64,000 nucleotides of DNA from Alphaproteobacteria bacterium (GTDB lineage: Bacteria > Pseudomonadota > Alphaproteobacteria > Micropepsales > Micropepsaceae): the NCBI GenBank assembly GCA_019241645.1, contig JAFAWQ010000035.1:1-64000 (forward strand), written 5' to 3'. The translations under genes were made by a program, and so were the position numbers. Below the pieces are notes generated by a model. It saw only the letters and a list, made by a program, of their open reading frames with translations, was not told where the DNA came from and ran no database searches. Shown here piece by piece: positions 12,142 to 38,515 of the stretch. Every line of letters starts with the position of its first letter. The stretch's first letter is position 1.

Positions 12142-12167
12142 GTTCTATTGTAGAACAATAACAGAAC
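12142..12167 (+). promoter_or_regulatory. LexA (SOS) box upstream of the micro-ORF and dnaE
   Basis: GAAC (12153-12156), seven bases and GAAC (12164-12167) form, on the other strand, GTTC-N7-GTTC, the alphaproteobacterial LexA site. A third half-site GTTC (12142-12145) lies with the same seven-base spacing in inverted orientation. The lexA gene in this window has a matching box before it. The site ends 21 bases before the ATG of the 32-codon gene. Confidence 0.75.
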
Positions 12168-12188
12168 ATACGAAACGGGAGAGGAAAT

Positions 12189-12287
12189 ATGGCATGGGTA
12201 CAGGACGTGGTTGCGGGAATTGGCGTGGTGGTGTTCATGGTCTGCTCGTTTGAATTCGCGAGCATCGCGGGGGCGGTGTTCTCCTGA
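12189..12287 (+). CDS. SOS-linked 32-residue single-pass membrane peptide (SidA-like candidate)
   Basis: ATG 12189 follows a GGGAGAGG ribosome binding site and opens a 32-codon frame ending at TGA 12285. The product has a short N-terminus with Trp3 and Asp6, then a hydrophobic helix (about residues 7-30, GVVVFMVCSF in the middle), a typical one-pass inner membrane peptide. It lies directly behind a LexA box and 82 bp before dnaE on the same strand. In Caulobacter the SOS-induced division inhibitor SidA is a 29-residue membrane peptide acting on the divisome (FtsW/FtsN). Size, topology and control agree; sequence homology is not established. Confidence 0.6.
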   Translation: MAWVQDVVAGIGVVVFMVCSFEFASIAGAVFS

Positions 12288-12369
12288 GAAGCTGTGGATG
12301 GGTGAAGCTGCCGCACGGCGGGCGGCCTCTTGGGCGATACTGTCGTTCGGCACCGAACGGAATCGCTGA

Positions 12370-15300
12370 ATGACGTCGCCCCGCAAACCGGCCGGTTTTG
12401 TCCACCTGCGGGTGAAGAGCGCCTATTCGCTGCTAGAAGGCGCCATCCGACCCAGTCAGCTGGCAAAGCTTGCGCTCGAGAACGCGATGCCGGCGGTGGC
12501 GGTCACGGACGTCAACAATCTGTTCGGCGTCTACGAGATTAGCGAGATCCTGGCGAAGGCCGGCGTGCAACCCATTGTCGGATGTCTGTTGGCGGTGGAT
12601 TTCGATCCGCCGCAATTGGGCGGCGCGATGGTGCGGCAGCGCCCGCCAATGCTGCCGCTGCTGGTGAAGGACGACACTGGCTACGGCAATCTGACCAAGC
12701 TGCTGAGCGCGGCCTATCTCGGCGTCGAACCCGGTGACTGGCCGCATGTGACACCGGAAGCGCTGGCAAAGCATGCGGGCGGATTGATCGCACTGACCGG
12801 TGGGCCGGGCGGTCCGCTGAACCGGCTGATCGTGGAAAACCAGGCGGACGCCGCGGAGATGTTGCTGGATCGTTTATCGGCGATGTTCGGCAACCGGCTT
12901 TACGTCGAGGTGCAGCGGCATGGCTTGCCGGAAGAGCGCGCGGCGGAGGGCAAGCTCATCGATGTAGCCTATGCCCGGCGCCTGCCGCTGGTCGCCACCA
13001 ACGACGTGCATTTCGGCGCCGCCGATATGTATGAGGCCCACGACGCGCTGCTTTGTATCGCGGAAGGGACTTTCGTCTCGCAGCAGGACCGCAAGCGCCT
13101 CACCCGTGAGCACCGTTTCAAGACCGCGGAAGAAATGGCGGTGCAGTTCGCCGATCTGCCGGAAGCCATCGAGAATACCATCGAGATCGCAAAGCGCTGC
13201 GCTTTCCGGCCGAAGAAGCGCGCACCCATCCTGCCGAAATTCGTTCCCGAATCCGGCCGCACCCCGGCGGAAGAATTGCGCGTGCAGGCGGAGGAGGGGC
13301 TCACACGCCGTCTCGCCGCGCATGGCCTGCATGCGGACGGACAGGTGTATCGCGATCGGTTGCAATACGAGCTGGATGTCATCATCGGCATGGATTTCCC
13401 TGGCTACTTCCTGATCGTGTCCGATTTCATGAAGTGGACGCGCGCGCACGGCATTCCGGTCGGCGTGCGCGGATCCGGCGCCACCTCGCTGGTCGCCTGG
13501 TCGCTCGACATCACCAACCTCGATCCGATCCGCTTCGGACTTCTGTTCGAGCGCTTCCTCAATCCCGAACGCATCTCGATGCCGGATTTCGATATCGATT
13601 TTTGCCAGGAGCGCCGCGACGAAGTCGTCCGCTATGTGCAGCAGAAATACGGCGAGGACCGCGTGGCGCACATCATCGCGCTGGGTTCGCTGCAGGCGCG
13701 CGCCGCCGTGCGCGATGTCGGCCGCGTGCTGCAGATGCCGCTGGGGCTGGTCGACAAGATCGCCAAGCTCATCCCAAATCCGCCCGGGCGCCACATCACG
13801 CTCGATGACGCCATCGCGGGCGAGCCGCGGCTGCAAGCGTTTCGCGAGCAGGAACCGGCCACCGAGCAGCTGTTCTCGATCGTGTCGAAGATCGAAGGCC
13901 TCTACCGCCACGCCTCCACGCATCCCGCCGGCGTGGTGATCGGAGACCGGCCGCTCGACGAGATCGTGCCGCTTTACCGCGATCCGCGCTCCGAAATGCC
14001 GGTGACGCAGTTCGACTACGCGGACGCGGAAAAAGCGGGCCTGGTGAAGTTCGACTTTCTCGGCCTGAAAACGCTGACCGTCATCGCCAAGGCCGAAGAG
14101 CTGCTGAAGCAGCGCCGCATCGAGCTCGACACCCAGAACATCGATTTCACAGACCGCGCCACCTTCGACATGCTGGCGCGCGGCGAAAGCGTCGGCGTGT
14201 TCCAGCTGGAAGGCGCAGGCATGCGCGACCTGATGCGCAAGATGAAGCCGGACCATATCAACGATCTGGTCGCCCTCGTCGCGCTCTATCGCCCCGGCCC
14301 TATGGATTCAATTCCAAAATACATCGCGGTGAAGAACGGCAAGGAGCCGCCGGAATACCTGCACCCGACACTCGAGCCGATCCTGAAAGAGACCTACGGC
14401 GTCATGACGTATCAGGAAGACGTCATGAACATCGCGCGCGAGCTCGCCGGCTATTCGCTGGGCGAAGCCGATCTGCTTCGCCGCGCTATGGGCAAGAAGA
14501 TTCATTCCGAAATGGTGGTGCATGAAGAGCGCTTCGTGCGCGGTGCGGGCGAGAAGGGAATTCTCAAAGGAATCGCGCTGCAGATTTTCGAGCAGGCGGC
14601 GAAGTTCGCGGGCTACGGGTTCAATAAGGGTCACGCCGCCGCGTATGCGCAGGTGGCGTATCAAACGGCGTATCTGAAAGCGAATTATCCGGTCGAATTT
14701 CTCGCTGCCTCGATGACGCTCGATATCGGCAACACCGACCGGCTGAATGTCTTCCGCCAGGAGGCGCAACGCCTGAGCATTCGCGTGGCGCCGCCCGATA
14801 TCAACCGCTCGGAAGCCCACTTCGCCTGCGATGCGGAAGCCGGAATTATCTACTACGCGCTCGCCGCCGTGAAAGGCGTCGGCAAGCAGGCGATGGAACA
14901 TGTGGTCGAGGTGCGTCGGTTGGGCGGTCCGTTCACCGGTCTTGCCGACTTCGCGGCGCGTGTTGATCCCAAACTGGTCAATCGCCGTGCGTTGGAAAGT
15001 CTGGTGCGCGCCGGCGCCTTCGATGCGCTGAGTGCCAACCGGCGCCGCTTGGTGGAGTCCGCAGACGCCATTCTCAATCACGCTGCTCGCAGCACGCAGG
15101 ATCGCGAAGCGGGGCAGGCGACGCTGTTCGGTGAGTCGAGTTCTGGCGAATACGAGCTGCGGCTCGCGCCGGTCGACGATTGGCTGCCACACGAGCGTTT
15201 GAGCGAAGAGTTTGCCGCTATCGGTTTCTATCTCTCCGGCCACCCGCTGGATGGCTATCAAGCGGCGCTAAAACGGCTCGGCGCCGTGACGTTTGCCGCA

Positions 15301-15804
15301 ATTCAGGAAGATCGCCGCCGCTCCGGTTTCCGCGCGCAGATCGCCGGCACCATCATCCGCAAGCAGGAGCGCCGTGGGCGCAGCGATCAATCTTATGCCT
15401 TTGTCTCGCTGTCGGACACCACCGGCATGTTCGAGGTGATGGTGTTTTCGGAAGTGCTGTCCGCCGCGCGGCCGTTCCTGGAGCCGGGCAAATCTGTGCT
15501 GTTCACGGTGGCGGCGGACTGGATGGATGATGAACTGAAACTCCGCGCCATCGCTGCGCAGGATCTGGACAAGGCGGCGGCCGAAGCGGGCGAGGGGATG
15601 CGCGTCTATCTGGAAGATGAACGCGCTCTGGGGCCGATATCGATGCAGTTGAAGAACGGCGGCAAGGGCATCGTGACCCTTGTGGTGCCGGCGAGCGAAG
15701 GCCGCGAAGTGGAGATCAAGATTCCGCAGCGCCAACAGGTGAACGCCGCCTTGCGCGCCGCCATCAAATCGCTGCCCGGCGTCGCCACCGTGGAGGCCGT
15801 GTGA
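12370..15804 (+). CDS. dnaE: DNA polymerase III subunit alpha (DnaE1)
   Basis: This 1144-residue protein is the replicative polymerase. It has an N-terminal PHP domain (about 10-280), the catalytic palm with the PDFDIDFCQERR motif (about 398-409) and GPMDSIPKYIAVKNG, the RRAMGKK finger element, a helix-hairpin-helix region, and an OB domain (FRAQIAGTIIRKQERRG). The KKRAPILPKF segment and length fit alphaproteobacterial DnaE1 rather than the SOS polymerase DnaE2/ImuC. PHP metal residues are eroded: E. coli-type HLRVHSDYS reads HLRVKSAYS and TDHGN reads TDVNN, so no PHP exonuclease is expected. It lies behind a LexA box and a micro-ORF. Confidence 0.96.
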   Translation: MTSPRKPAGFVHLRVKSAYSLLEGAIRPSQLAKLALENAMPAVAVTDVNNLFGVYEISEILAKAGVQPIVGCLLAVDFDPPQLGGAMVRQRPPMLPLLVKDDTGYGNLTKLLSAAYLGVEPGDWPHVTPEALAKHAGGLIALTGGPGGPLNRLIVENQADAAEMLLDRLSAMFGNRLYVEVQRHGLPEERAAEGKLIDVAYARRLPLVATNDVHFGAADMYEAHDALLCIAEGTFVSQQDRKRLTREHRFKTAEEMAVQFADLPEAIENTIEIAKRCAFRPKKRAPILPKFVPESGRTPAEELRVQAEEGLTRRLAAHGLHADGQVYRDRLQYELDVIIGMDFPGYFLIVSDFMKWTRAHGIPVGVRGSGATSLVAWSLDITNLDPIRFGLLFERFLNPERISMPDFDIDFCQERRDEVVRYVQQKYGEDRVAHIIALGSLQARAAVRDVGRVLQMPLGLVDKIAKLIPNPPGRHITLDDAIAGEPRLQAFREQEPATEQLFSIVSKIEGLYRHASTHPAGVVIGDRPLDEIVPLYRDPRSEMPVTQFDYADAEKAGLVKFDFLGLKTLTVIAKAEELLKQRRIELDTQNIDFTDRATFDMLARGESVGVFQLEGAGMRDLMRKMKPDHINDLVALVALYRPGPMDSIPKYIAVKNGKEPPEYLHPTLEPILKETYGVMTYQEDVMNIARELAGYSLGEADLLRRAMGKKIHSEMVVHEERFVRGAGEKGILKGIALQIFEQAAKFAGYGFNKGHAAAYAQVAYQTAYLKANYPVEFLAASMTLDIGNTDRLNVFRQEAQRLSIRVAPPDINRSEAHFACDAEAGIIYYALAAVKGVGKQAMEHVVEVRRLGGPFTGLADFAARVDPKLVNRRALESLVRAGAFDALSANRRRLVESADAILNHAARSTQDREAGQATLFGESSSGEYELRLAPVDDWLPHERLSEEFAAIGFYLSGHPLDGYQAALKRLGAVTFAAIQEDRRRSGFRAQIAGTIIRKQERRGRSDQSYAFVSLSDTTGMFEVMVFSEVLSAARPFLEPGKSVLFTVAADWMDDELKLRAIAAQDLDKAAAEAGEGMRVYLEDERALGPISMQLKNGGKGIVTLVVPASEGREVEIKIPQRQQVNAALRAAIKSLPGVATVEAV

Positions 15805-35546: not shown

Positions 35547-37745
35547 GTGGCGATAGGTCCGCTTTCCTCCCCCCGTCAAATCGCTTCCGGCACAACGGCC
35601 GGTGCGGGAGCCGCGCCGCCGGCCCTGCGAGTGGCCTCGGTATTCGGCTGGTTATCGCAAAGCGTCCTGGCCGAGCGGGATCGGTGGCCGCTTTGGCTTC
35701 CGGTCGCACTGGGAGCCGGTATCGGACTCTATTTTTCGCTTTACTTCGAGCCCACGCCGCTTTTCGCGGCAGCGCTGGGCATTTCGGGCCTGTTGCTTGG
35801 CATCGCGGCAATCGGCACGGAAACGCCGCTCCCCAAAGCCGCGCAAGCTTTGCTTGCGGCGGCGCTGATCGGTTTTGCGCTGGCCAAGTATCGGACCGAC
35901 TCCGTTGCCGCTCCCATTCTCGCGCACCGAACTTTCAGCGTCGTTGAGGGACACATCACGAGCCTTGAGCTGCACGGCAAGGGTGTGCGTGCGCTCCTGG
36001 ACGTGGAACAGGCGTCGCGGTTGAGCTTGAATGGCTATCCCAAAGCGGCGCGCATCTTCATTCGCAGCGGCGGCGGAGCGCTCGTACCCGGTGACAGAAT
36101 CCGCGTTCGCGCGGTTCTGTTACCGCCGCCTGAGCCAGCCGCTCCGGGAGCCTATGATTTTGGCCGCTCGGCCTTTTTTCAGCAGATTGGGGCGGTGGGA
36201 TTCGCGTATGGCAAACCGCAACTGCTTCTTCCTGAGCATATCGGTCTGGGAGATCGCATTCGGATTGGGATACAGGGGCTTCGCTGGCGAATATCCAATC
36301 GCATCCGCTCCGCATTGCCTGGCAGCACCGGATCGATTGCAGCATCGCTGATCACGGGCGACCGCGGCGGAATTTCCGACGACGATCAGACAGCCCTGCG
36401 CGATGCCGGTCTTGCGCATGTGCTGGCCATCTCGGGCCTGAACATGGCCCTTGTCGGCCTGGGATTGTTCTGGGCGGTGCGGGCTTTCCTTGCACTGTTT
36501 CCAGGGCTCGCATTGACGCAACCGATCAAGAAATGGGCAGCCGTGCTCGCGCTGTGCAGTACGGCGTTCTACCTGCTGATTAGCGGCGCGTCGGCGCCGG
36601 CGGTTCGCGCGTTTCTGATGCTCGCGACCATGCTGCTCGCGATACTGATCGACAGGCCGGCGTTATCGATGCGCTCGGTTGCCTTGGCCGCGGTCATACT
36701 GCTCCTCTTTCAGCCGGAGTCGTTGATCGATCCGGGATTTCAGATGTCGTTTGCCGCCGTGGCGAGTCTCATCGCGGTTGCGGAGTGGGAGCGCAGTCGT
36801 CAATCGGCCGAAACGGCCACCACCTCGTGGGCAAAAATCCGCAAATACATACGCGGCGGCGCCGTGACGAGCCTTGTTGGCAGCCTCGCGACGGCGCCAT
36901 TCGCGATCTATCACTTCGACAGGGCCACGCACTACGCCATCCTGGGCAACCTGGCGGCGATGCCGGTGATCGGCTTCGTGATCATGCCGGCCGCGGCGGT
37001 TTCCGTGATGCTCATGCCGTTCGGGCTAGAAGCCTATCCGCTGCACATCATGGGATGGGGCATCGATGCCATGCTTGCCATCGGCCGGCGCGTGTCGGCA
37101 TTGCCCGGGGCTGTTTCCGTGATCCCCGCCTGGCCGATGTCTGTCCTGCTTCTCCTCACAGCCGCAGGTCTATGGATGATTGTTTGGCGTGGCCGATTAC
37201 GCTGGCTTGCGATCGTTCCGCTGGTCGTTGCGGGCGGGCTGCTCGCTGGACTGCGTGCTCCTGATATTTTGGTGGCGCGCGATGGAAAAACCGTCGCATT
37301 CCGCAACGCACAGCAGCGAATGGTCTTTGTGCAGAAACCATCGGATGAATTTTCGGCGACTGAGTGGCTCAAGCGCGACGGCGATGCGTTGGTTCCCGCG
37401 AATGCAATTGCAGGACCTGGCGATCACATTGGCTGCGATAGCTCGGGCTGCGTGGTTCGCCTGCCGTCGGGATCGATGCTCGCTGTCGCCAGCCGGCAGG
37501 ACGCTTTGGACGAAGACTGCGCGACGGCTAACGTCGTGGTCAGCGCAATTCCCACGCGCGGCCGCTGCGCGCGGGCGCGATTCGTCATTGACCGTTTCGA
37601 TGTCAGCCGCAATGGCGCGTACGCCGTCTCGCTCCATGACGGCATCCACGTCGAAACCACGCGCCAGCGCCGCGGCGAGCGGCCCTGGAGCACGACCGCG
37701 CCGCGCCGTCAGTATCGCCGAATCAATCCGACCAGCTTGCCCTGA
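35547..37745 (+). CDS. comEC: ComEC/Rec2 family DNA uptake membrane protein
   Basis: ComEC forms the inner membrane channel for transformation DNA. From GTG 35547 the product is 732 residues: N-terminal hydrophobic helices (about 45-115), a DUF4131 domain, then the competence domain with the hallmark [37 protein letters not shown] (split; about 265-305) and several further helices, and a C-terminal soluble domain. No beta-lactamase-like HxHxDH motif is visible, common for alphaproteobacteria. GTG 35514 is an alternative start. Its 3' end overlaps lexA by 37 bp. Confidence 0.85.
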
Positions 37746-38449
37746 ACGCGCACCCGGTCGGCACCGTAGAGCCGTGTTTCGTAGGCAGGATTGGCGGCTT
37801 CCAGCGCAATCGAATCGCCGCGGCGGCGCAGGCGCTTGAGTGTTGCTTCCTGCCCGTCCACCAGGGCCACAATGATTTCGCCGGTATTCGCCGTGTCAGC
37901 CTGCTGGATGATCACCGTGTCGCCGTCCAGAATGCCAGCGTTGATCATCGAATCGCCGGCAACTTCGAGGGCGTAGTGGTCCCCGCGGCCTAGCATGCTT
38001 GCCGGCACCGGCACCTCGGCCACCTTGTTCTGTAGCGCCTCGATCGGTGTGCCGGCCGCGATTCGCCCCAGCACGGCGACATTGGACGCGCCATCCGCGT
38101 CGGCGCGGCGCGGGCTGCCTGCGATCCGGGTATCGGCCGCAACCCGGCCATCGCCACGTGGCACCCGGGCTGGCGATGTGTGCAGGCGTTGCGCCTGCGT
38201 TCGGCTCGTCGCCGGTCGCAAGGTGTCCGCGAGATTCTCCGGGAGTTTCACGACTTCCAGTGCGCGGGCCCGCTTCTGCAGCCGCTTGATGAAGCCGCGT
38301 TCTTCCAGCGCCGTGATCAGCCGGTGAATGCCTGATTTGGATTTCAAATCGAGCGCATCCTTCATTTCATCGAAGGAGGGGGGGATGCCCGTCTCCCGGA
38401 CCCGCTCGTGGATGAACATGAGAAGCTCGTATTGCTTCTTGGTCAGCAT
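37709..38449 (-). CDS. lexA: SOS repressor LexA
   Basis: LexA represses SOS genes and self-cleaves when RecA is activated. The 246-residue protein has an N-terminal winged helix (about 1-70; [21 protein letters not shown]), an unusually long linker (about 75-125), the cleavage site Ala132-Gly133, and the catalytic dyad Ser167 (GDSMI) and Lys205 (ATLKRL). ATG 38449 is preferred over an upstream TTG. A GTTC-N7-GTTC box lies about 50 bases before the start. The 3' end overlaps that of comEC. Confidence 0.96.
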
Positions 38450-38500: not shown

Positions 38501-38515
38501 GTTCTACTAAGGTTC
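38501..38515 (-). promoter_or_regulatory. LexA box of lexA
   Basis: GTTC (38501-38504), seven bases and GTTC (38512-38515) match the alphaproteobacterial LexA site. It lies 52-66 bases before the lexA ATG, so lexA is autoregulated. The site is also 38 bases downstream of the trpC 3' end, separating the two units. Confidence 0.85.

Follow-up and report, generated by a model that had tools for sequence, protein, structure and literature searches.

The closest described counterpart of the gene reported here is SidA of Caulobacter crescentus, a 29-aa inner-membrane protein whose gene is induced once LexA is cleaved and which blocks division and interacts with FtsW; Caulobacter cells deleted for lexA filament because of sidA (PMC4211646, PMC12700426). 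Alleles of ftsW that confer resistance to SidA are known, and a low-confidence prediction places the binding of SidA at TM7 of FtsW (PMC13396833). C. crescentus also encodes DidA, a small one-helix division inhibitor that is likewise induced by DNA damage (PMC4211646). YneA from Bacillus, SosA from Staphylococcus, and ChiZ from Mycobacterium are damage-induced small membrane proteins too, which act at FtsW or are predicted to bind it (PMC13396833). The SOS-induced division inhibitor of Escherichia coli, SulA, instead disrupts FtsZ polymerization (PMC4211646); it is not known to be a 30-residue membrane peptide. We found no description of sidA counterparts outside Caulobacter in the open-access literature searched (most subscription papers fell outside its scope), and the means by which most alphaproteobacteria arrest division upon DNA damage are not settled in that literature. 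The dnaE gene, for its part, is cited as SOS regulated in Caulobacter and was recovered in multi-chromosome alphaproteobacteria by a comparative study (PMC3323433).

The window analyzed here, i.e., the whole stretch of 64,000 nt, contains a 32-codon ORF (positions 12189 to 12287, plus strand) that compares with these systems as follows. Like SidA, its product is about 30 aa long with a single hydrophobic helix, and the gene has a LexA box upstream and precedes dnaE1 on the same strand. It is unlike SidA in falling outside the SidA sequence model (NCBIfam NF033228), and neither an interaction with FtsW nor a phenotype has been shown for it. The N termini also differ, with SidA starting M-[VI]-R-x-A-R-[ED] and the peptides of the window's genus starting M-x-W-x-[KQ]-D. 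DidA shares with the window peptide its small size, single helix, and role as a damage-induced inhibitor, the last of these only proposed for the window peptide, but it is 71 aa long, SOS independent, and DriD driven, whereas the window peptide has 32 residues and a LexA box. YneA, SosA, and ChiZ come from other phyla and have other extramembrane parts, and with SulA the window peptide would share only the proposed SOS-induced inhibition of division.

The locus upstream of dnaE1 and its conservation in the genus

The predicted LexA box GTTCTGTTATTGTTC lies at positions 12153 to 12167 on the minus strand and has the form GTTC-N7-GTTC; it is supported by the sequence and by its retention across the loci of the genus. 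A third half-site (12142 to 12145, GTTC on the plus strand) is found at the same 11-base spacing but is inverted relative to the other two (12153 to 12156 and 12164 to 12167), and the minus strand as a whole reads GTTC-N7-GTTC-N7-GAAC. The ATG of the ORF follows the box after a gap of 21 nt that includes a ribosome-binding site, GGGAGAGG (12177 to 12184, plus strand). An earlier note, made from the sequence alone, had described these half-sites with their spacing, the ORF, the ribosome-binding site, and the distances between them, and all of these proved correct; the spacing of the third half-site held as well, although its inverted orientation had gone unmentioned.

The box on its own was rejected as evidence, as it occurs at chance frequency in both the window and the genome: two exact matches to GTTC-N7-GTTC were observed in the window against 1.91 expected, and the genome as a whole has 74 matches, compared with 65 for a reversed control pattern. 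It is informative because of its location and of its being kept, not because a pattern of 4 plus 4 bases is rare. The window holds just one further exact box (38501 to 38515, plus strand), which precedes by 51 nt the gene for the presumed repressor, lexA (37709 to 38449, minus strand; TIGR00498, 169.6 bits versus a cutoff of 110.95). No sigma-70-like promoter was found by a consensus scan.

The product of the ORF, MAWVQDVVAGIGVVVFMVCSFEFASIAGAVFS (32 aa), has a best 15-residue Kyte-Doolittle mean of 2.66. It is atypical within its genus in that a glutamine replaces the lysine of the W-x-K-D motif and a glutamate occurs within the helix. A Pfam scan of 10 peptides returned no family above its cutoff, and the window peptide gave only a weak, subthreshold match to an NCBIfam phage holin model (14.4 bits versus a cutoff of 100). 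The ORF is in all likelihood a real SOS-type gene for a small membrane protein that has apparently been overlooked, as judged from its size and the absence of a family model; its insertion into the membrane is inferred.

Downstream, after 82 nt, lies the gene for the DNA polymerase III alpha subunit (12370 to 15804, plus strand). It is the replicative dnaE1 and not the mutagenic dnaE2: its product scores 1,376 bits against the DnaE1 model NF004226 (cutoff, 1,002), whereas the error-prone DnaE model NF004225 gives 632 bits on the same protein, under its cutoff of 939. A second DnaE copy is encoded elsewhere in the genome, on contig C52.

The peptide matches 34 of the 36 other genomes of the same genus at an E value of ≤1, and the two genomes without a match are incomplete assemblies (74% and 67% complete), giving 35 genomes with the peptide when that of the window is included. 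Thirty of these were examined as loci, the window's among them, and every one of them keeps its ORF intact at 30 to 35 aa, with an exact LexA box within 200 nt upstream of it and with dnaE1 downstream, directly in 26 and beyond one or two short ORFs in 4. The calls of dnaE1 were made by motif in 24 loci, by inspection in 2, and past the inserted ORFs in the remaining 4. The genus consensus, drawn from 26 peptides, is M-x-W-x-K-D-A-x-A-G.

The reading frame of the peptide is under purifying selection in the genus. Over all pairs, pN/pS is 0.50 in this frame, compared with values of 1.00 and 1.47 for the remaining two, and stop codons occur in frame +1 in 25/30 loci and in frame +2 in 3/30. The comparison of synonymous with nonsynonymous changes had been put forward in the earlier note as a possible refutation; once run, it showed the frame to be kept. 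Among the 15 closest pairs, dN/dS ranges from 0.06 to 1.13, with a few close pairs near or above 1, and the constraint is therefore real yet not strong everywhere. The search also covered one further genus of this family, represented by a single genome, in which the profile of the window's genus had no match, and four weak peptide matches at the level of the class were left out of the counts.

The address of SidA in other alphaproteobacteria

The SidA model NF033228 has 29 positions and a cutoff of 35 bits. It matched a peptide encoded upstream of dnaE1 in one family of our survey (f63) with an E value of 3.5e-4 and 20.5 bits, and when it was run over 119 genomes of that family, 93 were matched at an E value of ≤0.01, 71 of them above the cutoff. 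Of 14 named control genomes, only that of Caulobacter vibrioides was matched at the same E value, for which reason we take f63 to be the Caulobacteraceae. We examined 37 of 59 SidA-model loci, excluding 3 that were truncated by contig ends and counting one duplicated pair once. In all 33 distinct loci, a dnaE1 start motif occurs 40 to 346 nt after the SidA ORF, and an exact box is present within 200 nt in 22 and absent in 11; one SidA-model locus (L213) shows the box together with dnaE. Box, peptide, and dnaE1 are all present on named contigs of Phenylobacterium and Brevundimonas, and in named Caulobacter contigs and Brevundimonas diminuta an exact box is lacking but the peptide and dnaE1 are there. 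In Caulobacter, sidA is CCNA_02004 (PMC10769358), dnaE1 is listed in a table as CC1926 (PMC1839093), and CCNA_02005 is a nucleoside hydrolase (PMC3667746); that sidA and dnaE1 are neighbors in C. crescentus itself is an inference from this gene numbering. The window gene thus shares the address of SidA, directly before dnaE1, and the result on the position of SidA is new here.

A relationship in sequence is harder to establish. Searches with NF033228 retrieved no match in the window's genome at an E value of ≤10, none above the cutoff in any of 61 genomes, and none in the two window-genus peptides that were scanned. Direct comparison of the genus profile with the SidA profile gave a probability of 3.5% and a score of 12.7, which were equaled by 5/60 and 3/60 shuffles. 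When both were instead aligned by means of hhalign with a profile of intermediates, comprising all 40 distinct position-defined peptides with ATG starts, untrimmed (an earlier run had used 29 hand-picked and partly trimmed ones), the genus profile reached a probability of 90% (score, 27.6) and the SidA profile reached 96% (score, 35.0). Neither value was equaled in any of 100 shuffles under either of two schemes, one shuffling columns and the other keeping the N-terminal and helix segments apart. Homology to SidA is thus a model-based prediction, supported through intermediate families and not directly, the direct comparison being at noise level. The earlier note had stated that homology to SidA was not shown, which remains true of the direct comparison, with the intermediates now adding indirect support. 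The traits shared across families are few: around residues 5 to 7 there is usually an acidic residue, in many cases as part of a [KR]-[DE] pair, and it is soon followed by alanine and then by the helix, often with a late tryptophan.

The distribution of the arrangement was surveyed in two sets of dnaE1 loci. The first set contained 107 loci from 79 families (27 plus 80 fetched regions), which are part of the 232 of 250 genomes with a match. A box of either orientation lies within 900 nt in 21 of these loci. The form GAAC-N7-GAAC accounts for 15, spanning 11 families, and all 15 have a small hydrophobic ORF after the box; a further family (f121, three genomes) was added through the search with the genus profile. 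The GTTC-oriented boxes, found 49 to 79 nt before the DnaE match in 6/107 loci, were treated as chance occurrences. No small hydrophobic ORF was seen in the four of these that were inspected for one, the other two (L124 and L126) having been checked only for ORFs with the W motif.

The second set was made up of named dnaE1 loci, the 80 top-ranking ones among no fewer than 592 candidates; for 2 of the 80, less than 600 nt of upstream sequence was available. A box within 600 nt was found in 32 of the 80, and a hydrophobic ORF (20 to 65 aa, starting 10 to 120 nt after the box) followed in 32/32. The corresponding frequencies in controls were 111/925 at matched positions in loci without a box, 115/1,600 in shuffled DNA, and 3/32 at random places on the opposite strand. 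The two sets share 3 genomes and together give 184 distinct loci; a GAAC-N7-GAAC box lies within 600 nt in 47 of them, and at least 45 of these 47, counting ATG starts only, have a small hydrophobic ORF after the box. This is the outcome of the comparison across alphaproteobacteria that the earlier note had proposed.

A family HMM recognized peptides in 47/47 loci with a box, in 5/140 loci without one, and in no antisense ORF. Because its training overlapped the tested loci, being done partly on the same peptides, the search was repeated out of sample with an HMM whose training left out the named loci; this HMM recovered 18/28 box loci, 1/42 no-box loci, and no antisense ORF. As 10 of the 28 box loci were missed, the sequence similarity across families is evidently weak. 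The five no-box loci matched by the first HMM include those of B. diminuta, two Caulobacter records, and Neorhizobium. Most dnaE1 loci beyond the window's genus lack both the box and the peptide, and 135/187 loci had no GAAC box and no HMM match; the module is therefore widespread but far from universal. Records with the module come from Rhizobium, Sinorhizobium, Neorhizobium, Bradyrhizobium, Tardiphaga, Methylobacterium, Methylorubrum, Stappia, Aureimonas, Ancylobacter, Maricaulis, and Sneathiella, among others.

Searches of the class with the genus's own sequence features reached less far. The genus profile (A1) matched 12 of 385 genomes and left 373 without a match; the matches kept were those in four genomes (G000, G025, G031, and G061) and in the three genomes of f121, and five others (L035, L036, L039, L040, and L041) were dropped for want of a box. 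The combined pattern of a box and W-x-K-D was present in 14 of 385 genomes, against 10 for its reversed control. It was confirmed in frame in three genomes of the window's genus (G025, G031, and G061) and in three of family f82 (G118, G232, and G324). The frame check, which left out six loci (L043, L044, L045, L053, L054, and L055), was failed by L042; L052 is a true locus, but its W-x-K-D match falls outside its frame.

Proposed role and alternative readings

We consider it likely, with a probability of roughly 0.77 for the joint reading, that the ORF is a real gene and a divergent positional counterpart of sidA, that it is repressed by LexA, and that its product exerts a SidA-like hold on the late divisome. 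What is shown is that the gene is conserved and under purifying selection, has the box, and occupies the same address as SidA; the function is inferred, with the window gene most likely acting as SidA does because of its address, control, size, and topology. In the proposed mechanism, LexA bound at 12153 to 12167 would repress the peptide gene, and upon DNA damage RecA would trigger LexA cleavage, whereupon the peptide would be made, probably along with DnaE1, whose gene runs in the same direction. The peptide would then enter the inner membrane as a single helix and, like SidA, keep FtsW/FtsI/FtsN inactive until repair is complete. In the absence of expression or phenotype data, it is inferred that LexA binds, that the gene is induced and cotranscribed with dnaE1, and that the peptide enters the membrane, targets the divisome, and arrests division. 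The earlier note's proposal of a SidA-like candidate is accordingly supported as regards size, topology, predicted LexA control, and position, and the inhibition of division stays inferred.

The alternative that survives best, although we think it unlikely, is that of a shifted job, in which a LexA-controlled membrane protein at the address of sidA has a target other than FtsW, such as FtsN, RodA, or the proton gradient. In its favor, there is no match to the SidA model, and the sequence changes very fast from one family to the next, with topology and control unchanged. Against it, the address, size, control, and the layout of a [KR][DE] pair followed by the helix are held in common with SidA via the intermediates, and the genome does encode two FtsW/RodA-family proteins, both of which score below the ftsW cutoff.

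Somewhat less can be said for a leader peptide or upstream ORF, the translation of which would tune dnaE1 without any action in trans. Such a reading would fit the short distance of 82 nt to dnaE1, the shared direction of the two, the lack of a terminator-like site in the interval, and the retention of this position in several families. However, it is the amino acid sequence that is under purifying selection, and the hydrophobic helix is kept across families. Moreover, a hairpin after the peptide's stop codon is not consistent across the genus (mean z, −0.99; below −2 in only 5/30 loci), other ORFs intervene between the peptide and dnaE1 in 4/30 genus loci, and the gene at the same address in Caulobacteraceae matches the model of SidA, an FtsW-interacting inhibitor of division (PMC4211646). 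A hairpin or attenuator between the peptide and dnaE1 was likewise unsupported by the hairpin and terminator scans. Since neither a terminator-like site nor a consistent hairpin was found, the co-induction of dnaE1, which the earlier note had also suggested, is plausible, but it is inferred without expression data.

A chance ORF, with the box serving dnaE1 alone, is all but excluded, for although a single box of 4 plus 4 bases is common by chance and dnaE has previously been listed as SOS regulated in Caulobacter (PMC3323433), the peptide is conserved in 34/36 genus genomes under purifying selection, and a hydrophobic ORF follows the box in 32/32 named box loci versus 12% or less in controls.

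Returning to the SidA-like reading, a bolder form of it, which we likewise favor as a joint proposition, holds that the LexA box, one-helix peptide, and dnaE1 form an old alphaproteobacterial module, that this is a widespread division-arrest system, and that the LexA site tabled for dnaE is really that of the peptide. We propose that the site credited to dnaE in print may primarily belong to a hidden peptide gene. Were the bolder form true, the SidA checkpoint would not be a specialty of Caulobacter, and damage would couple the arrest of division to the supply of the replicative polymerase. The fixed address (box, tiny membrane peptide, and dnaE1) permits a positional search where a sequence search fails, and it points to candidate genes in hosts that are amenable to experiments, among them Sinorhizobium, Bradyrhizobium, and Methylobacterium. 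The rapidly diverging natural variants are also on offer for mapping how a 30-residue helix might jam the divisome.

Genomic context of the box and of dnaE1

Outside the window, the genome has 72 exact boxes, of which we examined 20, mostly those with AT-rich spacers. Four of the 20 precede recognizable SOS-type genes. Three of these are ssb, uvrA, and a radical-SAM DNA repair gene (TIGR03916); the fourth is an ORF some 3 kb ahead of the second dnaE that looks like imuA, and NCBIfam returned no match for it. The ssb product passed its cutoff; for uvrA and the radical-SAM gene, short N-terminal pieces were scanned, and the scores fell below the respective cutoffs. An exact box is hence found in this genome before lexA, ssb, uvrA, and the radical-SAM repair gene as well as before the peptide gene. 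The 300 nt upstream of recA (G000:C47:107859-108824) contain no exact box, only a site with one mismatch.

Two further motifs flank the peptide gene. A conserved element, TTGTTCTTG, occurs 11 to 24 nt upstream of the box in 26/30 genus loci, and the window carries an altered version of it; it is probably part of the promoter. After the peptide, the DnaA-box-like core TGTGGATG (12293 to 12300, plus strand) is conserved in position within the genus, with the motif TGTGGA[TC]R occurring within 80 nt after the stop codon in 27/30 genus loci versus 16/3,000 shuffles. It may indicate that dnaE1 is under an additional control linked to DnaA, this function being inferred.

In the four genus loci in which dnaE1 does not directly follow the peptide (L010, L014, L027, and L028), the intervening ORF or ORFs are about 150 aa each and open like ...ELxAALGxSxSAWPxIxSGLEE.... 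In the window, about 22 kb separate dnaE1 from lexA, the Caulobacter counterparts of which are CC1926 and CC1902.
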